From: a virus
IMG/VR virus record: IMGVR_UViG_3300021963_000080
Location: 22,562 to 86,561 of that record
DNA length: 64,000 nt
Reading direction: 5' to 3' (one strand)
Part shown: positions 9,080 to 57,802 of the stretch, in pieces
How the letters are laid out: each line of letters opens with the position of its first letter
Position numbering within the stretch: position 1 is the stretch's first letter
Program-made: the position numbers and the translations under genes
The notes under the pieces: model-generated
Database searches by the model: none
Told to the model about the DNA's origin: nothing
The model's input: only the letters and a program-made list of their open reading frames with translations

Positions 9080-9098
9080 GGGGGCGTTGCCCCCTTTT
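9080..9098 (+). terminator. Intrinsic terminator
   Basis: GGGGGC-GTT-GCCCCC stem-loop followed by TTTT and, after CG, TTTTT. Ends the DUF932 transcript. Confidence 0.9.
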
Positions 9099-9119
9099 CG
9101 TTTTTGTGGTATCATACTG

Positions 9120-9127
9120 GATAAATA
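9120..9127 (+). promoter_or_regulatory. Possible T4-like late promoter before the tmRNA
   Basis: GATAAATA, one mismatch from the T4 late promoter octamer TATAAATA, about a dozen bases upstream of the first RNA-like sequence of the tmRNA acceptor piece and after a terminator. No convincing sigma70 pair was seen here. Confidence 0.4.
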
Positions 9128-9132
9128 AAGAT

Positions 9133-9450
9133 ATTGTTGTAATCCCTTCAAAGCGAAGGAATTCTGGACGTGGGTTCGACTCCCACCAGGTCCACCAGAA
9201 AGAGTATTATAGTGGGTTCGCAAGTATGAGTCGCATTCTAAAGAGTGCCCTTGAACTGGATATAGTATTCTTCCTAATGGGCCTGCCATGGTTTCGACAG
9301 GGTTAGATAGCAGAGACGGCAACACGGTAGGCGATGACCGTAAATCAAGCAAAATTAATAACTGCAAACGATGAGTTATTCCTAGCAGCTGCTTAATTGC
9401 ACTGCATGAGTTTTGCTAGTTGAACTTGGAAACAGAATCAACTAGCCATT
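9133..9450 (+). ncRNA. ssrA: Circularly permuted (two-piece) tmRNA
   Basis: The 3' acceptor piece comes first (about 9133-9197) and ends in CAGGTCC-A-CCA. Its T-arm is GTGGG-TTCGACT-CCCAC (9170-9186), preceded by AGGAATTCTGGAC as in bacterial tmRNA. An 81-bp intervening segment (9198-9278) follows. The coding piece begins GGGCCTG (9279-9285) and continues GGTTTCGACAGGGTT, the conserved tmRNA D-loop-like block. GGGCCTG pairs fully with CAGGTCC and places G-U at pair 3-70, the alanine identity element. The tag frame GCA at 9364 to TAA at 9394-9396 encodes ANDELFLAAA. It is flanked by CTAGCA/TGCTAG (9382/9414) and a CTAGTTGA/TCAACTAG hairpin. Exact outer ends are uncertain. It would rescue stalled ribosomes and tag their products. 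Confidence 0.92.
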
Positions 9451-9478
9451 ATGTTTAATAACAAAAAAGGTATTTTTT

Positions 9479-9931
9479 ATGAAATTGAAATTAGCATTAG
9501 TTATTGCCTTGCTTACTACATCCGGCATTGCATCAGCAATCGAAGTAGGTATCAACGCAGGCCGCTCATTCACTGGTACTGATCGTAACAACACCGGTAT
9601 CACAATTGGCCAAAAGACTGGCGCAGTTGGAATTGAAGCTGGGTTTGATGCATTCCGTAGTGGTGTAGATCAAAACCGTTGGTCATTGATCGGCTCCTAT
9701 GATGTTACTAAAGTTGCTGGCACAACCGTTGCTGTTAAAGCCGGCGGTGCATGGCTAGACAACAAAGGTACGACAAGTGATGGCTACACCGCTCTTGTTG
9801 GTGCTGGTGCATCATACCCACTATCTAAACAATTAGCATTGACTGCTGACTATAAATATCAGATAGGTCAAAAGCGAGTAGATCAATTCAACGGTAGCAA
9901 CGTTACTGCTGGCTTGAAGTATTCGTTCTAA
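9479..9931 (+). CDS. Outer-membrane beta-barrel protein (Lom/Ail/porin-like)
   Basis: 150 residues. A classic signal peptide (MKLKLALVIALLTTSGIASA) is predicted to be cut before IEVGIN. The remainder is alternating amphipathic strands with Gly-rich turns, and the last residues GLKYSF end in Phe, the C-terminal signature of proteins folded by the Bam complex. Its size fits a barrel of about eight strands, like the Ail/OmpX/Lom group. Phages use such proteins to alter the host surface, for example to block further adsorption; that role here is inference. It lies just behind the tmRNA and has AAAAAAGG as ribosome site. Confidence 0.75.
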   Translation: MKLKLALVIALLTTSGIASAIEVGINAGRSFTGTDRNNTGITIGQKTGAVGIEAGFDAFRSGVDQNRWSLIGSYDVTKVAGTTVAVKAGGAWLDNKGTTSDGYTALVGAGASYPLSKQLALTADYKYQIGQKRVDQFNGSNVTAGLKYSF

Positions 9932-41544: not shown

Positions 41545-43596
41545 ATGAAAATACAATTTGTGAATTATTCCATGGCCGCAGAGGTTCTTGGAATTGATTA
41601 TGCTTGGTTAACTCTCAAATCGTACTTCGAAGAAAACAATAAACACAAGACTCAGTGGGAATGGTTAGATCCAATCACTGAGTCTTATGCTTTTCACGTA
41701 GACGATCTCGTTAATGAAATTATAGAACGTAAACCTGATGTTCTAGGATTCTCTCTTTACGTTTGGAACGTTGGACTATCTCTACAGATAGCAAAACAAG
41801 TAAAGAACAAACTCCCTAATTGCAAGATTATTGTAGGGGGTCCTCACATAACATACAAAGAAGATATTAATTACTTTAAAGTAAATAATTTTATCGATGC
41901 TGTATGTAAAGAAGATGGTTATGGTGAGGTATTCCTTACGGAGTACTTGTACCAACTCGAACAACCGACTCCTGATCTTACCCAAGTCCCATACTGCATA
42001 TATCCGCACAACGGAATGTGGAAAGAATCATTTGCAAGTTTCTACAAACGAGATTTTAAATGGCCTGTTCGAATTTACAAACACAACAAGGCCTACATCG
42101 ATCGTCGTATAGAAAAATCAATTAAAGAAAATAAAAAACTCTACGTAGCTTATGAGACGTCGCGAGGATGTCCATTTGGTTGCACTTATTGTGAGTGGGG
42201 TGGGGGGATCAATTCTAAGGTCACTTTCAAACCAACTGAGTTAATTATAGAAGATATAGATTTTATACTTGGTTATGTAAAGCCATTTTTCTTTTCATTT
42301 ACAGACGCCAATTTCGGAATTATTGACCGAGATGTTGACATTATTAAACATATATGTGCATGGAGAAAACGTGCTTCGGTTCCTAGTATTATGTACTTCT
42401 TTGGCCCGTCAAAAGTCAACAAACACAACGTATATGAGATTGAATCTCTGACAGCAGAATATGGAATGCTTTCCGACTACAAAGTCCCTGTACAAGATCT
42501 AAACAGAGATGTGTTGAAGAATATTGACAGAACAGATGAAGATTGGAAATTGCAATTAGAAAACTATATTAAGATTAGAGAAAAGCATGGTGGCAAAATC
42601 CGACTCGAGATGATTCTTGGCTTGCCAGGTGCTACTTTAGATAGTTACTACGAAGCCTTAGATTACTCGTGTACAATGGATACGTTTGGCAAGAGGTATG
42701 TTTGGCACTTGCTACCTACAACGCCAGCATCAAAAGCAGAGTATCGAGAAAAATTTAAAATACAAACTCTGAAAACAAGCTTTGGTATGAGAAGTACGAA
42801 CGATGGTACCTTTACAATTTTAAAAAAGCATTTTGTTGAAAATTTAAATGTTGCTCGAGATCTTGTAGTTGATCCGGAATGGATGTGTCCTACAGAAATT
42901 GTAATTGAGACGATGTCTTATTCTAAAGAAGAATGGCTGACAATGTTTTTAATGGACTATGTTGTTCACCAAGCAGAAGTTGGAGAGTTACTTTCTTCTA
43001 TTACAAAATACATGGCTAGTACCGGTATTCCTCATAGCGTATTTTATAGAAAGTTGTGGGATTCTTTTCTTTTTGCAGAAGGAAATGGCCTTACACCTAC
43101 TCAGAATATCTTGCTTCAATCTATGTGGCAGCAGGGTTTAGAAAAAATACAAAAAGACGAAGCTGTTGATTTTGAATACTTCGATGTTCCGGAAAACTTC
43201 CCATTCCAAGTTCGCTGCTTGGCTGGCCCATTGTTTAACATTATGCTGTATAGTAATATTAAAGCGTTTTATATTGCACTTGCTAGATGGTGTAACATGC
43301 AGTTTGGTGAAGATCCGATTCGGGATGATTTAATTGTATATACTTCTTCTATGATTAAAAATATAAACTACACCCCTAATCAATATACTTTTTCTACTGA
43401 ATATGATTGGTCAAAATACAGGACCAATGGCGTTTTTGTTAAACGACCAACAACATACCAACCAAACGACTTAGTGCTTTGGGGTGAAATGACAGATATA
43501 AATACACGAATAAAACAACATTTTTTATCTATTTGTTCGAATATGAATGGGACAAAACTTTTTGAAAAAATAAAAGTGTCATATCCAAAAAAATAG
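41545..43596 (+). CDS. Radical SAM protein with B12-binding-like N-terminal domain
   Basis: 683 residues. Residues 50-150 look like the Rossmann-type B12-binding domain (ERKPDVLGFSLYVWNVGLSL, CKIIVGGPH), but the D-x-H-x-x-G cobalamin motif is not seen. The radical SAM core has the 4Fe-4S motif C209-PFG-C213-TY-C216 (SRGCPFGCTYCEWGG), followed by FSFTDANFGI and a GLPGAT glycine turn. The C-terminal about 250 residues are unassigned. Such enzymes transfer methyl groups or make C-C/C-S bonds. It starts with a poor ribosome site, 1 bp after a fibre gene, and heads the radical-SAM cassette. Confidence 0.85.
   Translation: MKIQFVNYSMAAEVLGIDYAWLTLKSYFEENNKHKTQWEWLDPITESYAFHVDDLVNEIIERKPDVLGFSLYVWNVGLSLQIAKQVKNKLPNCKIIVGGPHITYKEDINYFKVNNFIDAVCKEDGYGEVFLTEYLYQLEQPTPDLTQVPYCIYPHNGMWKESFASFYKRDFKWPVRIYKHNKAYIDRRIEKSIKENKKLYVAYETSRGCPFGCTYCEWGGGINSKVTFKPTELIIEDIDFILGYVKPFFFSFTDANFGIIDRDVDIIKHICAWRKRASVPSIMYFFGPSKVNKHNVYEIESLTAEYGMLSDYKVPVQDLNRDVLKNIDRTDEDWKLQLENYIKIREKHGGKIRLEMILGLPGATLDSYYEALDYSCTMDTFGKRYVWHLLPTTPASKAEYREKFKIQTLKTSFGMRSTNDGTFTILKKHFVENLNVARDLVVDPEWMCPTEIVIETMSYSKEEWLTMFLMDYVVHQAEVGELLSSITKYMASTGIPHSVFYRKLWDSFLFAEGNGLTPTQNILLQSMWQQGLEKIQKDEAVDFEYFDVPENFPFQVRCLAGPLFNIMLYSNIKAFYIALARWCNMQFGEDPIRDDLIVYTSSMIKNINYTPNQYTFSTEYDWSKYRTNGVFVKRPTTYQPNDLVLWGEMTDINTRIKQHFLSICSNMNGTKLFEKIKVSYPKK
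43497..43504 (+). promoter_or_regulatory. Exact TATAAATA octamer inside the end of the radical SAM gene
   Basis: A T4-type late promoter octamer 116 bp ahead of the gene at 43620. It lies in coding sequence, so it may be chance. Confidence 0.3.
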
Positions 43597-43619
43597 ATAA
43601 AATAATAAAAGGTAAAAAC

Positions 43620-44216
43620 ATGGTTATTTTATTATCTCATACATTAGAATCCCAAACAGCTTTCAATGTACAGCAAGTCGTTAATACTTCTGAGCAGAAT
43701 TCTTTTATCGAATCGCTTCATCAGCGCAGAGCTCTTTTTCAAGGCGATACTTCTCGTGAGATAAAAGATCGTTTAATAGACGTCGCCAGACAACATCCAG
43801 AAATATACGGACAAGGTGCAGGAGACCAATGGCAGCAAGGAAATTTTGCTACGACCATATTACAAGCAGCTGAAGATGGAACATTGCAATCAAAATTTAT
43901 CTTTTGTTTTGAAAAAATATTCGATCAATTATTTCCATATGTTATTCAACAACTTCCTGCAGATCAAAAGACGTTATTGGTATATCCTGCCGTGAGTTAC
44001 AAGCCCAAAGGCGTTGATCATTTTATTGGTTGGGCTGTCAATCCCCAAGATTTTGGAATAGAGCATATGGAAGAGCACGAGCGAATTGCAAAAGAAGCAG
44101 CGCTGCATTTATCTGAAGCTCATAATAGCTGGATGAGAGAAAATCAACAACAATATGATAAATTTTTTGATGGAGCTACTTCTCAAGAAGTAATTCAATA
44201 TATTAAGGGATTATGA
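43620..44216 (+). CDS. Unknown protein of the radical SAM cassette
   Basis: 198 residues, not recognised. AAAAGG precedes the ATG. Gln/His-rich helical protein with DVARQHPEIYGQGAGDQWQQ in the first half, YPAVSYKPKGVDHFIGWAVN in the centre and EEHERIAKEAALHLSEAHNS near the end. No enzymatic signature or signal peptide. Tight coupling (4-bp overlap with the next gene) and its place in the cassette suggest a partner or peptide-chaperone role, by inference. Confidence 0.65.
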   Translation: MVILLSHTLESQTAFNVQQVVNTSEQNSFIESLHQRRALFQGDTSREIKDRLIDVARQHPEIYGQGAGDQWQQGNFATTILQAAEDGTLQSKFIFCFEKIFDQLFPYVIQQLPADQKTLLVYPAVSYKPKGVDHFIGWAVNPQDFGIEHMEEHERIAKEAALHLSEAHNSWMRENQQQYDKFFDGATSQEVIQYIKGL

Positions 44217-45181
44217 AGCATTGGCTTTTTACACGTGCCCAAAGTAGACCTCCTGATTGGGAACGTATAGCGGATAGTGTGAATCTTACTCCGATTGTGG
44301 TAAAATCAGAAACGGAGGAAAGATATTATACCGTTCCTGTTAATAAAACACTTGTTCCTGAATCAAAACATCATTATATAAAACAATGGCATCACGGTCA
44401 AACGCTAATGCAGTTTGATAAAGATGTAACGTCTCTTGCTGTTGTAAAACATAAAGATGGTGCAACAATTACGCAATCATATATTCCGGAAGTATTGCGA
44501 GATGAGTATAATAGTAGAATAATAGATTTAGATTTTCTCGAGCGCACTTTAGATAAAAAAGGATGGTGTGCTTTGGGAATGTTAGTTGAAGGAGATGAAC
44601 CAGTCACCCAAACTGCTCTCTTACGAGACTCACGTTATATTGTTAGAGACGATCAATATAGATTGTTGTTTGCTGATACAAATGAACTGTGTGGATTGGA
44701 TAGTCCTGTTAAGTCCCTGTTGTTATTTGTCGCTTTTAAATTGGGAAGAACAAACGCTTACATCCTTGTTGTGAATCCTAATATTGTTAGTTTACATGGA
44801 GAACTTGGAAGCGTTAATGAGCAACGAAGTGTAGCAGCTTGTGCTAGTTTTTCTAATATTGTACCGTGGTTTGCTTTTGCTCCCAGACTAAACTGCAATC
44901 TTATTAATAATAATACTATTGTTGTAAATAGGGGAGAACTGGAGCTTGCTATTGGAGGGGCGTCCATAATACAATATACAACTCTCCGTGGTGTTGAGAA
45001 TTTAGATTTTACAGTAGAATGTTCATGGGAATATAATGTGGTTGATAACGTTATTAGAGTTAAAAGACAGCCCGGTGTTGGTTATATAAAAATTATAACC
45101 CCTTGTATTGATATGACAAAACAATATGTAACAGCAGAAGATAGAAAAATAACATTAGAATATATTCTTTTAGGAGTATGA
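44213..45181 (+). CDS. Unknown protein of the radical SAM cassette
   Basis: 322 residues, not recognised. N-terminal MKHWLFTRAQSRPPDWERIA, a mixed alpha/beta first half (HHYIKQWHHGQTLMQF) and a beta-rich C-terminal part (IVVNRGELELAIGGASIIQY; YVTAEDRKITLEYILLGV) that may be an immunoglobulin- or jelly-roll-like domain, suggesting a virion-associated or binding protein. It ends one base before the small Cys-tail protein. An AGGAG near its 3' end serves the next gene. Confidence 0.6.
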   Translation: MKHWLFTRAQSRPPDWERIADSVNLTPIVVKSETEERYYTVPVNKTLVPESKHHYIKQWHHGQTLMQFDKDVTSLAVVKHKDGATITQSYIPEVLRDEYNSRIIDLDFLERTLDKKGWCALGMLVEGDEPVTQTALLRDSRYIVRDDQYRLLFADTNELCGLDSPVKSLLLFVAFKLGRTNAYILVVNPNIVSLHGELGSVNEQRSVAACASFSNIVPWFAFAPRLNCNLINNNTIVVNRGELELAIGGASIIQYTTLRGVENLDFTVECSWEYNVVDNVIRVKRQPGVGYIKIITPCIDMTKQYVTAEDRKITLEYILLGV

Positions 45182-45182
45182 A

Positions 45183-45377
45183 ATGACAGCAGATACAACA
45201 TCGACATTTACGTCAGGGACCGGCGCCCAAGGTACCAAGACAACCGTAGATACGATCACGGCTGCCCACTTCACCCAAATGTTGGATATTGTAGATTCGT
45301 TGGTCAGTCATGGCCATACATTCTATGATGATTATTCAACTAATTGTGAGTGTCAGTGTGGACGCGGTTCGCTATAG
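45183..45377 (+). CDS. Small H-x-H protein with C-x-C-x-C tail; candidate modification substrate
   Basis: 64 residues with a strong ribosome site (TAGGAGTATGAA) before ATG 45183. Thr/Gly-rich leader, then the block TITAAHFTQMLDIVDSLVSH, then HGHTFYDDY, and a C-terminal tail CECQCGRGSL with an earlier N. The H-x-H and following D-x-Y pattern recurs in the 130-residue protein at 49221. The size, Cys-rich C-terminus and position directly upstream of four radical-SAM-type genes are those expected of a RiPP-like precursor or a small virion protein matured by these enzymes. The thioether or metal-site outcome is speculation. Confidence 0.7.
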   Translation: MTADTTSTFTSGTGAQGTKTTVDTITAAHFTQMLDIVDSLVSHGHTFYDDYSTNCECQCGRGSL

Positions 45378-45393
45378 ATGAATCGATTATAAC

Positions 45394-47040
45394 ATGAGTC
45401 AAGTGAACGTAGTAAAAATATACAGAACATTAAATGATGCTCAAAAAGAACGTATTGCCAATCATGCTGCAACAGTAGTTCAGCTGGAAGATGGTACGTT
45501 GAAGACAACCGTCGATACAATTATTACCCCTGCCGGTTTAGAAAAACAAAATAAACTAATAACTATTGTTCCGTCGGAAGAGGAACAAGTAAAGAGTTTT
45601 GATCAAGCAAAGCATCTATTCAGTAATTTAATTCATATGAATTTGTTGCTGACAAATGCTTGTAACTTGAGCTGTAGCTATTGTTACGAACAGCATAAAA
45701 AAGATTATGGTAGATTCACGGTTGAATCTGTAAAGCAATCATACGACTGGCTCAGCAATATTAACAAACAGCCGTTAAAGATTCTCCAGTTCTTCGGAGG
45801 CGAGCCACTAATACACAAACCACTAATTCAAGACTTCATTAAGACGTATGATGAAGAGTTGAACGCTAATTGGAATAATTATATTGGTACAGGGATCTCT
45901 ATTTGTACGAATGGGTTGTTACTAGATGATGATTTTATTGATATGTACTTTAACAAAAAGTACACGTATATGTTGATTAGCCTCGATACAATGGATCTCA
46001 AAAAAGACTACAGAGAGATCACACAAAAGCAATTAGATACAATCCTTCACAATGTTGAACGTATCACTAAGATACCGAACGTCGGAGCAAGACTGACAAT
46101 CCGCTGTACATTATCTGAAGAGACTGCTGATAGTCTACACGAATTTATAGAATCAATTTACTCAAAGGGAGTTAAGCGTTTAATTATTCACCCTTTAGTT
46201 CTCGACTCAAAACGCGGGTATATTAAATGGAGTAAGGATAATTGGAGTATGATGCGCGAGGCAATACTCGGATGTTTAGACAAGTATCAAGACTTGACCG
46301 TGTTGTTTAGTGAGGGAGTAGGAGAGAAGCAAGATAACAACTGTATGGTTGGTTCTGATATGATTGCTATTGATGGTAGTGGAGACTTCTCAGGTTGTTA
46401 TTTCTTTACAAACCAAAAAGCTGCTGCTCACGAAACTATCCTCGGTAACATATTACAAGATAGAGTGTATGTAGACCGTTACATAAAGTTTCAGAAAATC
46501 TACAACGAGATGTTTGAAGTAGAAGAGCAATGCAAGGCTTGTGATTATCAAAGTATGTGTTACCAATGTCCGGCTGGTAATATTGATACTGGTCCACGTA
46601 TGTTCAGACCAGATGATATGTGTCAAGAGATTGTAAAGTTATATCTTGATCTACAAGCAGATGTCGCAAAGAAACAATTTCGTCGTTTGTTTGAAATTAG
46701 ACTCCAACAACTACAACTTGAAGGTGAGCAGCAAACAATAGCAGCTGGAGCTGACTATATGTTGGAGTACTTGAAGACTGGCCATAGAGTAATGTTCGAT
46801 CCTTCTAAAGATAAACAATATAAACCATATAAGCAAATTTTATTAGATATTTGGTCGCACATAAGTGGAGAATCGAACGATAGTGGTGAGATGGAAGCAG
46901 TTGAGTTGTATAGATCGTTAGCCAAAAGAACTGGTATGTTACCAAAAGTTGTTGATGGAGATACGCCTGAGATAAGAGTATTTTATTTGCAATTGATTTC
47001 CACTATGATATTTAATGAGAAGAACCATGGATTTAACTAA
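45394..47040 (+). CDS. Radical SAM/SPASM maturase
   Basis: 548 residues. Radical SAM motif C90-NLS-C94-SY-C97 (TNACNLSCSYCYE), then FFGGEPLIH (GGEP SAM-binding turn) and a typical half-barrel. An auxiliary iron-sulfur (SPASM) region follows with C380-x2-C383-x5-C389-x2-C392 (EEQCKACDYQSMCYQCPAG). SPASM enzymes modify peptides or proteins, as in sactipeptide or quinohemoprotein maturation and sulfatase activation. N-terminal about 80 residues could hold a peptide-binding element. No ribosome site is visible, in contrast to the small gene just upstream. Confidence 0.9.
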   Translation: MSQVNVVKIYRTLNDAQKERIANHAATVVQLEDGTLKTTVDTIITPAGLEKQNKLITIVPSEEEQVKSFDQAKHLFSNLIHMNLLLTNACNLSCSYCYEQHKKDYGRFTVESVKQSYDWLSNINKQPLKILQFFGGEPLIHKPLIQDFIKTYDEELNANWNNYIGTGISICTNGLLLDDDFIDMYFNKKYTYMLISLDTMDLKKDYREITQKQLDTILHNVERITKIPNVGARLTIRCTLSEETADSLHEFIESIYSKGVKRLIIHPLVLDSKRGYIKWSKDNWSMMREAILGCLDKYQDLTVLFSEGVGEKQDNNCMVGSDMIAIDGSGDFSGCYFFTNQKAAAHETILGNILQDRVYVDRYIKFQKIYNEMFEVEEQCKACDYQSMCYQCPAGNIDTGPRMFRPDDMCQEIVKLYLDLQADVAKKQFRRLFEIRLQQLQLEGEQQTIAAGADYMLEYLKTGHRVMFDPSKDKQYKPYKQILLDIWSHISGESNDSGEMEAVELYRSLAKRTGMLPKVVDGDTPEIRVFYLQLISTMIFNEKNHGFN

Positions 47041-48091
47041 CATTAAAAGTGTAGTAATCTATCTTGGCGATACGTGTAACTTTGATTGCGTGTATTGTGA
47101 TAGAGCATTCATAAGAGAAGATGTTGGTTCTCAGAATATGAAGAGTACAGCTGTTAATGATATTGTTGCTTTTATGGATGCAGTTGTTGAGAGCGAGCAT
47201 CCGCTTCAATATGTGAGCTTCCATGGCGGCGAGCCAATGCTATATGTTAAGAAGATGGATCACATACTTGACAAGATAGCTCCCCACTTGGAAAAGATTG
47301 GTTGTAAGTTCGCAATGACTACCAACGGTTCGTTGATTGCAGAGAATGCTTGGTTTTTTGAAAAGTGGGCCGGTAAATGTCAGATTACTTTCAGCTACGA
47401 TTTCAACTATCAAGATATTAATAGAGCCCCGGTTGATTTAGAAGCTGTTGCTAAGGTATTGCATGGCACTCGAACAAACTGCTTGTTCCAATTTGTTGTT
47501 CCCATCTCTACGCCCGGAGCATTAGACTTAGAAACTTCTACAGCAATAGTTAATGCTTGTAAACTCCTTCGTTGTAATGTTGTTAACTTGATTCCTCTTA
47601 GACATTATCGCGGTAAACAGAAGTTCAAAGTTCTACTAGATGATTTAAATCTCGATAGATTCATGTATGACTTTTCTAAGATGTTACATACTTTATATGT
47701 AAACGGTGTTGTATGTTATATTGACGGAAACTATACGGATATTGACAAACAATATTTGGACAACCATGGAAAGCTAATACTTGGACCGGACGGATATCTA
47801 TATCCTGAATTTGATTTCCTCGAATATAAGCGAGATGAATTTAGAGTCGGTAAATGGAGAAACGGAATTGAATTGTATAGACAAGGAAATGAAGAGTCTC
47901 TAATTAGACCGGGTTGCACTAATTGCATCTCTCGTCAGTATTGCGGTTTGAAGTATCTCTATAAAATGTTTGACGAAGAGCCAAAAGGAAACTGCGTTAA
48001 GTTTTATCAAACCATCAACGTGCTTGTTAAGCATATGAACAAATTAAACCAGAAACCTTCATTATTACATTGGGTAGGAATAGATGAGTGA
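47027..48091 (+). CDS. Radical SAM/SPASM-type protein
   Basis: 354 residues from ATG 47027 (ATG 47015 is an alternative; both overlap the preceding gene). Motif C17-NFD-C21-VY-C24 (GDTCNFDCVYCDRAF), FHGGEP turn and a C-terminal Cys set C-x2-C-x5-C (PGCTNCISRQYCGLKY) ending DEEPKGNC, consistent with a SPASM/twitch auxiliary cluster. The radical SAM motif lies unusually close to the N-terminus, so there is no precursor-binding extension. Likely acts on the same target as its neighbours. Confidence 0.85.
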   Translation: MDLTNIKSVVIYLGDTCNFDCVYCDRAFIREDVGSQNMKSTAVNDIVAFMDAVVESEHPLQYVSFHGGEPMLYVKKMDHILDKIAPHLEKIGCKFAMTTNGSLIAENAWFFEKWAGKCQITFSYDFNYQDINRAPVDLEAVAKVLHGTRTNCLFQFVVPISTPGALDLETSTAIVNACKLLRCNVVNLIPLRHYRGKQKFKVLLDDLNLDRFMYDFSKMLHTLYVNGVVCYIDGNYTDIDKQYLDNHGKLILGPDGYLYPEFDFLEYKRDEFRVGKWRNGIELYRQGNEESLIRPGCTNCISRQYCGLKYLYKMFDEEPKGNCVKFYQTINVLVKHMNKLNQKPSLLHWVGIDE

Positions 48092-49205
48092 ATATGTCGG
48101 AGAAGACTTTGAGCAATACCAAGATCATACTACGTACTTTCTCAGAGAAGACTCTTTAAGTCCTCTAACGTTTGATCTTTACTTTACTCCAACATACAAA
48201 TATACTTGTCATGCTGGATGTCAGATTTGTTATATTAAGGATAAGTTAAAACAAGGGTTCTCTACGTTTCCTCAGAACGTTCCTTCTATCATATCAACAA
48301 AAGATGAGCAGCGCTGGTATGATGTGTTCGATCACTTCTACGTAATTCGTACAAACGATGATCTAACGTACCTCCGTCTCAATTATCCATACATATTTGA
48401 GTGGTACAAATCACACGGAGAGATATTTGAATATGGTATGACTGATAATGCTGTATTAACTCATCGTAAGACGCTGATGGATAATATTACAATGAAGGGT
48501 ATGGCGGATATCAGTCTCAGCGACCACTTCCTTGTAAAGACAAATAAAAACAAACAGATTATAGAAGTGTTGAATGATTATGCTTCCAAATACAACATTG
48601 CTAAAATAAAGATTATACGAACAACAGACGGACCTGCTCCTCCTCAAGTAGAGGAGATTGTCAATTGGATGAATGAGCGGGGATTGTATAACTGCTTACA
48701 ACACGATCTTAGAGATGATGCCAACGCAAGATATGATTTAGAAGGTAAGTATGATTACCAAAATACATACGTTCTAAGTCACAATAATAAAACATACCAA
48801 ATATACAGAGAAGCAATCCACTTGTACAACGATCGCTTCTTTTATAGTATTGATGATGCTACCGATATTGATTGGGATCCGTTTTTCATATTTGATAAAG
48901 ATCAAGACTTCAATCCTACTGAACTAATGTATGAGATGTTGAGCGGCAAGAAAAAGCTATACGGTAAATTTGCTAATGAAATCAAACCAACAAATAAAGT
49001 TGAGCAAAAGTTTGTCGATTACTTCAACGAAGTTCAGAAGTTTAAATTTAATCCTGATTTTAACTTTGTCCCTGAGTTTATGTTAAAATCTAATTGTAAG
49101 TTCTACCACAAATTAATACAGAGTGGGTTTAAAAGCTTCCAATACGGGTTAATTAAACCAAATTCCGGCGCTAAGACGATCCCGATTATTCAGTGGGATA
49201 AATAG
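48084..49205 (+). CDS. Divergent radical-SAM-type protein
   Basis: 373 residues. A C42-HAG-C46-QI-C49 motif (YTCHAGCQICYIKDKL) has the C-x3-C-x2-C spacing of radical SAM enzymes and a following tyrosine in place of the usual aromatic pair. The typical GGEP turn is not seen, nor SPASM cysteines; the only further Cys are YNCLQH and SNCKFYHK. It might be a reduced radical SAM protein acting as partner subunit of the two enzymes upstream. It overlaps the preceding gene by 8 bp. Confidence 0.7.
   Translation: MSEYVGEDFEQYQDHTTYFLREDSLSPLTFDLYFTPTYKYTCHAGCQICYIKDKLKQGFSTFPQNVPSIISTKDEQRWYDVFDHFYVIRTNDDLTYLRLNYPYIFEWYKSHGEIFEYGMTDNAVLTHRKTLMDNITMKGMADISLSDHFLVKTNKNKQIIEVLNDYASKYNIAKIKIIRTTDGPAPPQVEEIVNWMNERGLYNCLQHDLRDDANARYDLEGKYDYQNTYVLSHNNKTYQIYREAIHLYNDRFFYSIDDATDIDWDPFFIFDKDQDFNPTELMYEMLSGKKKLYGKFANEIKPTNKVEQKFVDYFNEVQKFKFNPDFNFVPEFMLKSNCKFYHKLIQSGFKSFQYGLIKPNSGAKTIPIIQWDK
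49197..49204 (+). promoter_or_regulatory. Late-type octamer overlapping a stop codon
   Basis: GATAAATA, one mismatch from TATAAATA, covering the end of the preceding gene and 17 bp ahead of the strong start at 49221. Could provide extra transcription of the small H-x-H protein; weak evidence. Confidence 0.25.
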
Positions 49206-49220
49206 CTTTAGGAGGGGAAT

Positions 49221-49613
49221 ATGGCTCAATCAGAAAGAAGTCAACAAGCTGGATATCCAAAAAATAACGACACAGGTAACGAACTTAGCACGGAACAATC
49301 GAGCATAAGAAGCAACCTGAGGTCTCGCTTCGTCACAAACAACACTGTTTTAGCAAGCGATGTGAATAACTTGCGCACGTTGATGAATGCTTTTCAGAGA
49401 CATTATCACAGATACACTGATTACGATAGAATTCAAACATACGGTAATAATGGTAGCACCGGATCAAGAGATGTAGACACTTCTATACTAGGAGGATATT
49501 CTGATCCAGGTACTGTTTCTGCGGGAGATGTGATTACAACATCTTATATCAATGGTCACGTTAATGCAGCAAATGTATTACGAAGCCACAACCACGCTAT
49601 CGACGACGCATAA
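49221..49613 (+). CDS. Small H-x-H repeat protein; candidate modification substrate or fibre component
   Basis: 130 residues. The ribosome site TTTAGGAGGGGAAT is one of the strongest of the window. Two related blocks: VLASDVNNLRTLMNAFQRHY ending HYHRYTDYD, and VSAGDVITTSYINGHVNAAN ending SHNHAIDDA. Each is a helix followed by H-x-H, the same pattern as in the 64-residue protein at 45183. Between them is a Gly/Ser/Thr-rich stretch. It fits a structural virion protein, and lies between radical SAM genes, so it could be a target. H-x-H pairs can also bind metal, as in the T4 gp37 tip. Confidence 0.65.
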   Translation: MAQSERSQQAGYPKNNDTGNELSTEQSSIRSNLRSRFVTNNTVLASDVNNLRTLMNAFQRHYHRYTDYDRIQTYGNNGSTGSRDVDTSILGGYSDPGTVSAGDVITTSYINGHVNAANVLRSHNHAIDDA

Positions 49614-49630
49614 CCCAATACACTTATATT

Positions 49631-50941
49631 ATGTCTTTTGCTAAATTTGAGATTAAACAAACCGGTCAAACATTCTATTATAACAACGATAGAAACTCCA
49701 TTGTAAACGCGGAAGGACAGTCGTTATCCGCTTCACCGATCCACTCCGAAGAATGGTATGCTGAGCAAGCAGCTCAAAACGGTGTTATAACAAAAACTAA
49801 TAAGCCTGTTGGGCTTCGCATTCTATTAGGACACGCTTGCAATTATTCTTGTTCCTACTGTATGCAGAAGGATATTGGAGATCCGAGTGAGCGACCAGAG
49901 AATTTCTGGACTCCTGATTTCCTTGAATCGGTAGAAAAGTATCTTGATACGTCTCTGCTAACTCGTATTGAATTGTGGGGTGGAGAACCATTTTTGTATT
50001 GGAATGATATGGTCAAAATAATGACCCATTTTGATAGTGAGAAAATATCGTGGTATATTTCCACTAACGGAAGTGCTCTACGACAGAAGCATGTTGATTT
50101 CTTCAAGCAATTGAAGTCGCCAGTTGCAATGGGAATAAGTCACGATGGACCAGGTCAGGAATCATTGCGGGGCGAGGATATATTCCAACGTCCGCAAGTT
50201 GTAGATGTATTAAAGCAACTAGATTTATTGTACCCAAAATTTCAATATAGTTTTAATCCTGTAGTAAGTAATACAAACTTTAATCTATTTGATATAAATG
50301 ATTATTTTTATAAGCTGGCTGTTGATAACCAGTTGAAGAATTGTAAGATTAGTTTTACGCTCGGTAGAACATATGATGATACAGACTCCAAGAATAGTTT
50401 TGAGCATGTAATACATGGTGAAAATTTGAAAGCATTTAAAATAATAACAGAAGATTACATGAATGCCGCAATAGAGCAGTTGAAGAAGCACGGAAGATCT
50501 AAAACTTTACCTATATTACAATCTAATATTTTTGATGGGGATACTGGTGCAATTAAGTTTGCGCAATCTGTGAAGAATGAGCTTCCAATAACAATTACAA
50601 CTAATTGCGGAGCTGATGCAAAAGATATATTGAGTGTGGATTTGAGGGGAAACGCTAGATTATGTCCTCACACACACGAAAAATACAATGGTGGCCATAT
50701 ATCTAATATCAAAGGGATAAAGATAGTATCGCTTGCTTTGGATAGAAAAAAGACACACTGTTCTGATTGTCAAGTTCGCCGGTTATGTAAGAGTTCATGT
50801 CCGATTGATTTTCCGACTGATGTATTTCTGAAGAATTGCCGTGTTGAAAAAATATGGTATGGAAGCGTACAGAATGCAGGATTCAAGATGTTATTTGGTT
50901 CAGATGTAGAATTGAAGGAAACGGGAATTGCAAGTGTATGA
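49631..50941 (+). CDS. Radical SAM/SPASM maturase
   Basis: 436 residues. Motif C70-NYS-C74-SY-C77 (GHACNYSCSYCMQKD), ELWGGEPFLY turn, then STNGSALR and a C-terminal SPASM set: NCGADAKD, LCPHTHE, C-x2-C-x5-C-x3-C (HCSDCQVRRLCKSSCP) and LKNC. Complete architecture of the peptide-modifying radical SAM/SPASM group. Its first 60 residues (TGQTFYYNNDRNSIVNAEGQ) may be a substrate-recognition part. No clear ribosome site. It overlaps the DUF3050 gene by 4 bp. Confidence 0.9.
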   Translation: MSFAKFEIKQTGQTFYYNNDRNSIVNAEGQSLSASPIHSEEWYAEQAAQNGVITKTNKPVGLRILLGHACNYSCSYCMQKDIGDPSERPENFWTPDFLESVEKYLDTSLLTRIELWGGEPFLYWNDMVKIMTHFDSEKISWYISTNGSALRQKHVDFFKQLKSPVAMGISHDGPGQESLRGEDIFQRPQVVDVLKQLDLLYPKFQYSFNPVVSNTNFNLFDINDYFYKLAVDNQLKNCKISFTLGRTYDDTDSKNSFEHVIHGENLKAFKIITEDYMNAAIEQLKKHGRSKTLPILQSNIFDGDTGAIKFAQSVKNELPITITTNCGADAKDILSVDLRGNARLCPHTHEKYNGGHISNIKGIKIVSLALDRKKTHCSDCQVRRLCKSSCPIDFPTDVFLKNCRVEKIWYGSVQNAGFKMLFGSDVELKETGIASV

Positions 50942-51669
50942 TCGACACATCCCGTATTATTGCTAAACAGCAATCTTTATCTAATCACTCATTATTAGTC
51001 ACAAACTCAATCCAAACAATCGACGATTTGCGGATATTCATGGAACACCATGTATTTGCAGTTTGGGATTTTATGAGTTTGATCAAGTCGTTACAGCATA
51101 GTGCGTGTCCGTCTACTAATTTTTGGGTACCAACAACTGGTACTCGTAGCTCAATAGCAAGAACGATTAACGAGATTGTATTATGCGAAGAGTCTGATTT
51201 GACTCCTGATGGTAAATCTTCAATAAGCCATTTTGATTTATATCTCCAAGCAATGGAAGAAGTTGGAGCAAATACAGAAGCAATTGTTCGGTTTTTGGAA
51301 GCAAAAGACTTTGCAGTTATTCCGGAACCGTCCCGTGCATTTGTTGAAACAACATTCCATACAATAGATCAAGGACCCCATTGCGTTGCAGCTTCGTTTT
51401 GCTATGGGAGAGAAACAATAATCCCAGCAATGTTTAAGCGAATCCTTAGACAGCTCAATATTTCTAGCCTCGATGCTCCTAAGTTTTACTATTACTTGGA
51501 ACGTCATATCGAGGTCGATGGTGATGATCACGGCCCAAAAGCTCAGATGCTAGTTGAATATTTTTGCAAGAATGATCCGTTCAAGGCTCTTTGGGCAGAA
51601 AAAGCAGCGATTGAGGCTATAAATGCCAGGATAAAACTATTTGATCATATTGAATCTCTGGTCTTATAA
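50938..51669 (+). CDS. DUF3050 protein (heme-oxygenase-like diiron fold)
   Basis: 243 residues from ATG 50938 (ATGA overlap). Family blocks: FMEHHVFAVWDFMSLIKSLQ, EIVLCEESD, SHFDLYLQAMEE, SFCYGRETIIPAMF, and FYYYLERHIEVDGDDHGPKA. The E/H residues in EHH, EESD, H-F-D, R-H-I-E and DDHGP are positioned as metal ligands in heme-oxygenase-like diiron oxygenases, to which DUF3050 belongs. Such enzymes oxidise or cleave C-H, C-N or C-C bonds in amino acids and peptides. As the last gene of the cassette it could use a product of the radical SAM steps; this is inference. Confidence 0.82.
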   Translation: MIDTSRIIAKQQSLSNHSLLVTNSIQTIDDLRIFMEHHVFAVWDFMSLIKSLQHSACPSTNFWVPTTGTRSSIARTINEIVLCEESDLTPDGKSSISHFDLYLQAMEEVGANTEAIVRFLEAKDFAVIPEPSRAFVETTFHTIDQGPHCVAASFCYGRETIIPAMFKRILRQLNISSLDAPKFYYYLERHIEVDGDDHGPKAQMLVEYFCKNDPFKALWAEKAAIEAINARIKLFDHIESLVL

Positions 51670-54409: not shown

Positions 54410-57400
54410 ATGGCTGGGAATAAAATTCAATTAAAACGCACTAGTGTAACTAGTCGCGTACCTTCGAATACTGACATCGACGTCGGCGAGTTAGCAATTA
54501 ACTTAGCTGACAATCGGCTATTCACAAAGAACGGCTCTAATGCCGTTATCGACGTCCACGGTCAAAGTCTCAACACAACAGCAGCAGTTCAGTTTGCAAA
54601 CGTTACAGCAAATAACGTTCTCGCTACTACGATCACTGGTAATTTAGCATGGACGTATATTACAAACGTTCCGTATGCAAATTCAACAGCAAATGGCGTT
54701 GTTACTCTCATTGATAGCGTTAGCAATACATCTGCTACAATTGCAGCTGCAGCAAACTCTGTAAAGACAGCATATGATGCCGCTACTGCTGCATATGCAA
54801 ACGCAATTGCTTATAGTAGCTCAATTAACATTCCAGACGGCATTACTCAACTCGCGGTAACTAATAGCGGATCGTCGGGATATCTTTTAGATCAATATAC
54901 TGGCAGCAATCCAACAATATATGTTGGTGGTGGCGAGACGATATCATTTAGTCTAGCAGTACCTGGTCACCCATTTTTAATCCGCGTATCAAGCGGAGGC
55001 GCTAATACTACTGATGGTTTAACTCATGTATCTAATACTGGCGTAGTAACAACCGGATCAAGCGCGCAAGGGCAAGTTGATGGTACTTTATATTGGAAGG
55101 TGCCGTTTTCCCTTGTTGGTAGCACATATGTTTATCAATGCAGCATTCATGGAGGAATGGTTGGAAACATCGTTATTACTCCTCCATCAAGCTATTTTGC
55201 CAATGCGAGCAATATAACATCTGGTACACTTGATACAGCACGGCTACCGGCTACTGCCAATATATCCACTGCGGTAAACGTTGGAGCCAACGTTAATTTA
55301 ACTACATCTGGTATCAGTGTAGGAAACTCGTCAGCCAACGTTCAGATTACCGGTAGTGGTATTAACACAAATGGTACAGTAGCTGTAACAAACACACTAG
55401 CAGCCGGCAACACGACAATCACTGGTTTTGCCAATGTAAGCTCTACTCTTTCCGTTACAGGAGTTGCAACATTCGGTAATAATGTTGTTGTTTCTGGTAA
55501 CTTAGTCGTTACAGGATCAACGACATATGTCAACACTAACATATTCCAAGTTAGTGATAATATTATTACGCTTAATGCTGATGCAGCTGGCTCTCCTACG
55601 GATAACGTAGGGTTTGAGGTCAACAGAGGATCAAGCGCATACACATATTTGTTATGGGATGAGGGAATTGATAAGTGGACGTTTACTAATGATGGCACCA
55701 CTTATTTTAACATTGCTTCTAATACAGATGTAAGTACAGCATACTCTAATGCTACTTCTTATGCAGATACCAAAGCTGCAACTGCTTATTCAAATGCTAC
55801 TTCTTATGCGGATACCAAAGCTGCAACTGCATACTCTAATGCCGTTGCTTATGCAGCAGCAAACACATATGTAAACACAACATTTGCTCCACTAGCCGGG
55901 GCCACATTCACTGGACCTGTTTCTGGCATTACTACATTAGCAGCCGGCAATACTACAATTACTGGTTTTGCTAATGTATCTTCTACTCTACAAGTAGGAG
56001 CAAATGTTATATTAGGTACAACTACAATCTCCGCAAATGGAGGGGTAGGATCCGCAGGCCAGGTTTTAACATCTGGTGCTGGTGGAAACGTTTATTGGTC
56101 TACTATTGCGACTGGTGGATTTACTAATGGCCAGTCTATATCTGTTGCTAATCTTGTTGTAACAAACATAGCAACACTCAATGCGGTATCTGCTAACGGT
56201 GGATTAGGCTCTGCAGGGCAAGTACTAACAACAAATGGATCTAATGTATATTGGTCTACTGTTAGTGGTGGTGGCGGATCATCTAATACGTTTGCTACAA
56301 TCTCTGTATCTGGTCAAACGGATGTTGTTGCCGATAGTACAACAGATACTCTAACGCTTGTTGCTGGTAACAACGTAACGATTACAACTGATGTTAGTAC
56401 AGATACAATTACATTTGTTGCAAACAATACATTATTCACACTAACAACAGTTTCCAATACTTCTTCTGCTAACATTTCGTTAACAGGAACCGGACTAACG
56501 GCAAACACAGTTAAAGTTATTGGAGCTGGAGGCGTCAATGTCAATTCTAATGGTTCAGTTATTACCATTGATGGTACTGGAGTATCAGGTGGCGGTGGTG
56601 GATCAAGCAATTCGTTTGGCACTATTACCGTTTCAGGTCAGTCAGATGTTATTGCAGACCAAGCCAACGATGTCTTAACGCTTGTTGCCGGCAGTGGTAT
56701 GACAATTACCACAAGCCCAGCTGGCGATACAATTACATTCTCATCTTCTGGGGGCGGATCTGGTACTGGCACAGGAACAGCATTCATTGCTGCTCGTGAT
56801 AACTTTACTGCAAACGGTACACAGACAGTATTCTCATTATCAGTAAACGCAACTGCCAATAGCATCTTGGTTGCTGTTGATGGTCTAATTCAATTCCACC
56901 CAGAAGATTATAGTGTAAGCGGAACTACTCTCACTTTCGTTACCGCTCCGGCCAATAACGAAGTATTGGAAGTGTTGCATATTAGTGGAGCAACAAACTA
57001 TTTGTTCCAGCAGTATGCTGCTATTGATTCGTTTAGTGGTAATGGATCAAACACCGCATTTACACTTACTCGTTCTGCTAATACAAATACAGCTCAAGTT
57101 TATTTGGACGGTTTGTTACAAGATCCAAATAACGATTATACATTCAGCGGTTCAACGCTAACATTTACTACAGCTCCGTTATCTGCTGAAGCAATCCTCG
57201 TTTACCATACAGAGTCTTCTTCTGGTAATCCACATTTAACATCGATCTCTGGCGTTGATACGTTTGCTGGTGATGGAACAACAACAGGATTCACGTTAAC
57301 CGGAACAGCAAACAGCTCGACATCTTTTGTTACTGTTAACGGCTTAGTCCAGCGTTATACCACGGACTACTCGCTGTCCGGAACGACGTTAACATTTGTT

Positions 57401-57802
57401 GATGCACCTCCAAATGGATCAGCTGTCCAAGCATGGCGCTTGACTGGTTCATTGGGCGTAACGTATAAGACAATCCAAGTTTCGGGACAATCTGATATTG
57501 TTGCTGACCAAGCAGATGATATTTTGACATTTGCAAATGGCGCTGGTATTACAATCACAACAAATGCATCAACAGATACGTTGACCATTGCTCAATCAGC
57601 AATTACAAAACAAAGCTTGACTGGTAATGGATCAAACACAATCTTTACGCTAAGCACAAGCACAACGGAAGATGATATTCTTGTTTTTGTTGATGGTACT
57701 TACTTCCATCCAACAGATGATTATACTGTGTCCGGAACAACAATTACATTTGCGTCTGCTCCGATAAATAGTGCAGAGATCAGAATTAGGTACATGAGAT
57801 AA
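54410..57802 (+). CDS. Very large modular tail fibre with cupredoxin-like domain
   Basis: 1130 residues. Order of parts: N-terminal IQLKRTSVTSRVPSNTDIDV/GELAINLADNRLFTKNG; a cupredoxin-like domain (about residues 140-262) with candidate copper ligands H187 (GHPFLI), C244, H247, M250 (YQCSIHGGMVGNIVI); a DNIITLNADAAGS/EVNRGSSAY module; repeats YSNATSYADTKAATA; NTTITGFANVSSTL twice; SAGQVLTSGAGGNVYWST; three VSGQ(T/S)D(V/I)xAD blocks; and four about 65-residue C-terminal repeats ending xFVTAPANNEVLEVLH-type. Likely a host-binding fibre. A typical ribosome site is absent. Confidence 0.85.
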   Translation: MAGNKIQLKRTSVTSRVPSNTDIDVGELAINLADNRLFTKNGSNAVIDVHGQSLNTTAAVQFANVTANNVLATTITGNLAWTYITNVPYANSTANGVVTLIDSVSNTSATIAAAANSVKTAYDAATAAYANAIAYSSSINIPDGITQLAVTNSGSSGYLLDQYTGSNPTIYVGGGETISFSLAVPGHPFLIRVSSGGANTTDGLTHVSNTGVVTTGSSAQGQVDGTLYWKVPFSLVGSTYVYQCSIHGGMVGNIVITPPSSYFANASNITSGTLDTARLPATANISTAVNVGANVNLTTSGISVGNSSANVQITGSGINTNGTVAVTNTLAAGNTTITGFANVSSTLSVTGVATFGNNVVVSGNLVVTGSTTYVNTNIFQVSDNIITLNADAAGSPTDNVGFEVNRGSSAYTYLLWDEGIDKWTFTNDGTTYFNIASNTDVSTAYSNATSYADTKAATAYSNATSYADTKAATAYSNAVAYAAANTYVNTTFAPLAGATFTGPVSGITTLAAGNTTITGFANVSSTLQVGANVILGTTTISANGGVGSAGQVLTSGAGGNVYWSTIATGGFTNGQSISVANLVVTNIATLNAVSANGGLGSAGQVLTTNGSNVYWSTVSGGGGSSNTFATISVSGQTDVVADSTTDTLTLVAGNNVTITTDVSTDTITFVANNTLFTLTTVSNTSSANISLTGTGLTANTVKVIGAGGVNVNSNGSVITIDGTGVSGGGGGSSNSFGTITVSGQSDVIADQANDVLTLVAGSGMTITTSPAGDTITFSSSGGGSGTGTGTAFIAARDNFTANGTQTVFSLSVNATANSILVAVDGLIQFHPEDYSVSGTTLTFVTAPANNEVLEVLHISGATNYLFQQYAAIDSFSGNGSNTAFTLTRSANTNTAQVYLDGLLQDPNNDYTFSGSTLTFTTAPLSAEAILVYHTESSSGNPHLTSISGVDTFAGDGTTTGFTLTGTANSSTSFVTVNGLVQRYTTDYSLSGTTLTFVDAPPNGSAVQAWRLTGSLGVTYKTIQVSGQSDIVADQADDILTFANGAGITITTNASTDTLTIAQSAITKQSLTGNGSNTIFTLSTSTTEDDILVFVDGTYFHPTDDYTVSGTTITFASAPINSAEIRIRYMR

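Follow-up and report, generated by a model that had tools for sequence, protein, structure and literature searches.

Iron-binding HxH motifs are described in phage tail fibres, including T4 gp37 and Alteromonas phage R22Y, and are accompanied by a receptor-directed proposal for tail iron, the Ferrojan or Trojan Horse idea (PMC11705849); iron in these tail-fibre motifs is the nearest published idea to the domain described here. Phages can also code for a plastocyanin, PetE, whose gene is treated as a separate photosynthesis gene in the accessible part of a cyanophage genome study that also reports virion proteomics, and that part makes no mention of a cupredoxin in tails (PMC3037559). A search of the open-access literature returned nothing on a cupredoxin or copper domain in phage tails, with subscription papers and InterPro lying outside its scope, and an earlier notice is possible. 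The tail cupredoxin domain is overlooked, and the proteins that contain it are annotated as "baseplate wedge tail fibre connector" or "hypothetical."

A cupredoxin-like domain in a tail-fibre-like protein

The window (the whole 64,000-nucleotide stretch of DNA analyzed here, taken from an 86.5-kb virus record) contains an open reading frame (ORF) at positions 54410 to 57802 on the plus strand that codes for a tail-fibre-like structural protein of 1130 amino acids with a single cysteine. The assignment draws on matches to PHROG tail families 677 and 18673 and to Pfam Phage_fiber_2, which are just below cut-off, and on the T4-like baseplate wedge genes located upstream. Residues 145 to 257, from the first to the last predicted strand (54842 to 55180, plus strand), almost certainly form a cupredoxin with an intact metal-site signature, as judged from an AlphaFold model, a Foldseek search of the PDB, and a profile comparison with PDB sequences.

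The first-pass annotation had placed H187 and C244-x2-H247-x2-M250 in this 1130-residue fibre and read them as the ligand pattern of amicyanin. The residues are exactly so in the translated ORF, which contains AVPGHPFLIRV...YVYQCSIHGGMVGNIVI, and the set is complete, with C-x2-H-x2-M spacing and all four positions aligning with the ligands of amicyanin. His187, the predicted first type-1 ligand, is in a GHPF motif (codon at 54968 to 54970, plus strand), aligns with the amicyanin ligand His, and elsewhere is lost jointly with the cysteine and the second histidine. Cys244, the predicted thiolate ligand and sole cysteine of the protein (codon at 55139 to 55141), His247, the second His ligand (55148 to 55150), and Met250, the axial ligand, which is retained in most ligand-less copies too (55157 to 55159), all on the plus strand, are assigned from their positions, the amicyanin alignment, and the census of copies described below. 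A His followed after 25 to 85 residues by C-x2-H-x2-M was produced by 0 of 20,000 shuffles of the 1130-residue protein, and the four residues are invariant across both 24-sequence alignments; occurrence of the motif by chance is ruled out by the shuffles together with this deep conservation. H206 (in GLTHV) was considered as an additional ligand and rejected, since it is conserved in the nearest relatives only and is missing from most cyanophage copies.

Single-sequence matches to known families are weak (Pfam Copper-bind, E = 0.11, below cut-off; PDB pseudoazurin, E = 0.67), and the window copy does not match NCBIfam amicyanin (TIGR02657) at E ≤ 1, whereas 17 relatives do, the best at 2.3e-5. 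AlphaFold, supplied with fibre residues 130 to 265 and 24 sequences, returned an all-beta model with a pLDDT of 93 to 98 through the core and a cupredoxin-like topology, in which the first His immediately precedes a strand, the Cys ends the penultimate strand, and the Met immediately precedes the last. Foldseek matched this model to 54 PDB entries at E ≤ 1e-3, and the 50 of these that are listed are all copper proteins or same-fold relatives; they include nitrite reductases, rusticyanin, amicyanin, plastocyanin, pseudoazurin, CuA domains, laccases, and other multicopper proteins, as well as ceruloplasmin and coagulation factor VIII, which have the same fold. TM-scores are modest (0.4 to 0.5), and the relation to PDB copper proteins is thus at the superfamily level. 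A profile of 24 members (A2), composed of window, cyanophage, other phage, and bacterial copies, gave 100 matches to PDB sequences at E ≤ 1, with a best E value of 1.8e-6; the best 60 of the 100 are all copper proteins, and the first His, Cys, second His, and Met all coincide in the alignment with amicyanin. Among the 24 members, 17 match NCBIfam amicyanin, and 13 match Pfam Copper-bind at E ≤ 1. The cupredoxin-like assignment of the first-pass annotation is therefore upheld by the model, Foldseek, and the profile, and the structure prediction that it had suggested as a check gave a confident cupredoxin, with amicyanin and plastocyanin among the Foldseek matches listed. Co-location of the four ligands, which the first-pass annotation had named as the refuting check, is indicated indirectly, by the topology of the model and by homology. 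No experimentally solved structure of the domain from a phage turned up.

Five members of the profile also match PF25489 (best E, 2.7e-4), a domain of the plant At5g54830-like type and perhaps an unrecognized relative of the phage domain. BFVD matches include similar folds in Pithovirus and Marseillevirus "beta-sandwich proteins" and in a Fadolivirus "Blue type 1 copper protein."

Upstream in the tail-gene region, from 41545 to 51669, the window contains a group of radical-SAM enzymes, with a radical-SAM match within an ORF at 41545-43596, an enzyme with a SPASM-like end at 45394-47040, and two others at 47015-48091 and 49631-50941, together with an ORF containing CHAGCQIC (CX3CX2C) without a Pfam match (48084-49205) and a DUF3050/haem-oxygenase-like gene (50854-51669). 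The cluster could modify a tail peptide. A link between these genes and the cupredoxin domain was set aside, since a Pfam radical-SAM match is present in only 1 of 10 related contigs. A phage-borne tmRNA of betaproteobacterial type (9090-9487; tag, ANDELFLAAA) gives a weak hint that the host of the window phage is not a cyanobacterium, which counts, weakly, against plastocyanin mimicry.

Distribution and placement in phage tail proteins

A fibre with a blue-copper-like site had been thought unusual, but the domain is present in hundreds of aquatic phages, with tblastn detecting it in 249 of 50,697 phage records when the window copy is the query and in at least 335 of 50,697 when the query is the P-SSM4 copy. 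Nearly all of these are Synechococcus or Prochlorococcus phages, and the records also include Prochlorococcus podovirus P-SCSP2, a Pelagibacter phage, and an Actinomycetia phage. Hundreds of stretches of uncultivated viral contigs have the domain (518 in one search and 537 in another), and in marine Flavobacteriaceae (Bacteroidetes) it is present in other proteins. Cyanophage myoviruses usually have the domain at the end of the "baseplate wedge tail fibre connector" (PHROG 677), where it accounts for the final ∼115 residues, as in the six isolates P-TIM40, P-SSM4, S-WAM1, syn9, S-SSM7, and P-RSM6. Placement along the proteins varies among the N terminus, middle, and C terminus, in fibres as well as connectors, and the domain is thus a mobile module. 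It occupies 12 to 23% of the length of the window fibre (residues 140 to 262 of 1130), in the N-terminal quarter, and the earlier suggestion that it is at the tip is therefore abandoned for this fibre.

Cyanophage-type connector genes are also present in bacterial or archaeal assemblies (L129 5001-5300, Nonlabens xiamenensis; L150; and L130); the L129 connector is almost identical to that of P-TIM40, and these genes are probably phage DNA within the assemblies. A second subtype, HP[LM]RFS ... YYYC-x2-H-x2-M-G/S, is found in L220 (residues 111 to 235), L227, L228, and L150, and is part of the very large fibres of syn9, P-SSM4, and P-HM1, where His and C-x2-H-x2-M are also present.

The most frequent location of the domain leads us to favor a metal-rigidified docking role, and we infer this role together with copper as the metal and its occupancy in the virion. 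Residues 145 to 257 would constitute a cupredoxin with a complete type-1-type site of His187, Cys244, His247, and a weak axial Met250, made as apoprotein in the reducing host cytosol and probably loaded with copper after lysis, with the virion in oxic water. The metal would pin the His loop to the Cys/His/Met loop and rigidify the sandwich, and it may also shape an exposed His edge that meets a partner, either a fibre subunit or the host surface. Aquatic, mostly T4-like phages would use this mobile module in fibres and, in cyanophages, usually at the connector C terminus, and in both it would be a non-catalytic docking module. Copper is the likely metal of the site, and a cupredoxin with a copper site in the window fibre is fairly likely; a docking or stabilizing role, if copper is bound, is an even bet, and the full combination of cupredoxin, copper, and docking is advanced tentatively. 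The varied placement along proteins makes a single docking role for all copies a guess.

Placement also bears on a receptor-directed use of copper, in which the loaded domain would be recognized by, or would take copper at, a host outer-membrane copper receptor. There is a published parallel with iron in tail fibres (PMC11705849), and the domain is found in fibres besides connectors; however, its commonest place is the connector end, which is not a known receptor-binding tip, and the window fibre has the domain in its N-terminal quarter and no HxH motif in its 1130 residues. We consider this use of copper distinctly unlikely.

Joint change of the ligand residues and identity of the metal

A census of all copies at E ≤ 1e-2 contains 220 distinct sequences spanning the four ligand positions (214 at E ≤ 1e-3), the unit being distinct sequences and not independent events. 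His, Cys, and His are all present in 186 of the 220 and all absent from 34, and a partial set occurs in 0 of 220; the intact class has H, C, H, and M in 186 of 220. The 34 ligand-less copies read FATM (17), FAVM (11), QSSM (2), and FAIM, FSTM, YSFM, and TSNQ (1 each), and the axial Met is retained in all but one census copy. Nearly invariant in both classes are the Pro and Phe that follow the first His, a Tyr two residues before the Cys, and a Gly two after the Met. By eye, a degenerate copy (L093) has also lost H, C, and H; it is gapped in the alignment, and the census counts exclude it. A search with this copy as query recovered itself only. Because patterns containing the ligands were used in part to find copies, the search was repeated with two ligand-less copies, of which the QSSM query recovered 56 HCHM copies (55 via ligand-neutral patterns), one YSFM, and one further QSSM, and the FAVM query recovered its own clade and one HCHM copy.

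On a tree built with the ligand columns left out, the ligand state requires five changes, of which three are forced by well-supported branches, suggesting that the state changed at least three times and probably five; the shortness of the domain leaves many of the forks unresolved, and loss and gain are not told apart by the tree alone. Synechococcus phage RB11-B has a baseplate-region copy with an intact site (L223) and a second copy, in a different tail fibre, that matches the ligand-less S-B05 copy exactly. Modeling of the largest ligand-less clade still gives a cupredoxin (pLDDT, 78), with rusticyanin and nitrite reductase as the best PDB matches, although a profile of ligand-less copies (A3) finds no copper protein by sequence.

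The existence of ligand-less copies that continue to model as cupredoxins implies that the scaffold alone is useful, and is the evidence for a metal-free relic, a sturdy sandwich in which the ligands are retained for packing. Packing predicts partial replacements, however, and 0 of 220 distinct copies show one, the joint change of H, C, and H having taken place at least three and probably five times. Joint change at three separated residues, on a fold that is retained, is what a metal centre would be expected to leave behind and is not readily explained by packing, and we regard a relic as very unlikely.

The main competitor of copper is another metal, most likely zinc, stabilizing the cupredoxin sandwich. 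Cys-His-His sites are good zinc binders and copper is scarce in the host cytosol, such that both the site itself and assembly in a copper-poor compartment suit zinc, but the ligand spacing is that of copper proteins and only one of 214 copies lacks the weak axial Met. The Met is kept in ligand-less copies too and is thus not specific evidence against zinc, which we consider an unlikely occupant of the site.

The full type-1 ligand set is also the electron-transfer set of amicyanin and plastocyanin, as would befit a redox sensor or trigger in which a Cu(I)/Cu(II) switch at the host surface helps tail contraction or fibre release. Such a trigger is highly improbable, however, in a protein without an electron-transfer partner, and some fibre copies persist despite a lost site. 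Receptor-directed copper and a redox trigger are both possible and are less likely than a docking module.

If copper is bound, then a tail protein of many of the best-studied ocean phages is a copper protein, phage adsorption is tied to copper chemistry, with clean tests possible in laboratory cyanophages, and copper becomes part of the metal-binding colloid role proposed for phage tails. The natural ligand-less copies are ready-made apo controls. As a tentative generalization, type-1 copper might be bound at one site per connector or fibre chain in many T4-like phages of aquatic habitats, a large share of the sequenced cyanophages among them. The virion would then be a copper protein, with site occupancy influencing how fibres attach or how the phage adsorbs to its host, and would add to natural waters a copper-binding colloid that has gone uncounted.

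Comparison with known copper and metal-binding proteins

The HxH iron fibres likewise place a metal in a tail fibre, but the fold, the ligands, and presumably the metal differ from those of the phage domain described here. The connectors of PHROG 677 (annotated as gp9 or gp10-like) end in the same domain, ∼115 residues long and with identical ligands, whereas in the window protein, a long fibre, the domain is close to the N-terminal end and the rest of PHROG 677 is unmatched; this fibre matches only positions 255 to 410 of the 412-position PHROG 677 profile, and the two therefore share a domain and are not the same protein. PetE, a cyanophage auxiliary photosynthesis gene product, is a viral cupredoxin too, but it is coded by a separate small ORF of 116 to 134 codons, has a longer Cys-His-Met loop, and is not among the virion proteins considered. 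A captured phage plastocyanin as the origin of the domain is ruled out, since each candidate petE gene stands alone as a small ORF and codes for a different loop.

Multicopper oxidases have a T1 ligand His that is followed by Pro-Phe, in an HPFHLH motif, and this His-Pro-Phe is common to the phage domain, with laccases among the Foldseek matches; the phage protein differs in having a single domain without type-2 and type-3 copper ligands. In plastocyanin, azurin, and amicyanin, an Asn directly follows the first ligand His, in contrast to the Pro of the phage domain, a point that tells against the favored reading. The plastocyanin loop is C-x2-H-x4-M, compared to C-x2-H-x2-M in the phage domain, and aligning the two takes an insertion of 2 residues; on loop length, the phage domain is not classed as a plastocyanin. 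Nor is it classed as an amicyanin, given its tail-protein setting and the lack of a curated match for the window copy. Amicyanin (TIGR02657), like other type-1 cupredoxins, does have the fold, ligand order, C-x2-H-x2-M loop, and first-His alignment in common with the phage domain, which has the Greek-key beta-sandwich of the cupredoxin superfamily (in the model and Foldseek matches), a profile relation to it, and the type-1 ligands His, Cys, His, and axial Met in order and aligned. Amicyanin, however, is a secreted electron carrier, whereas the phage domain is part of a tail protein in which copper is predicted.
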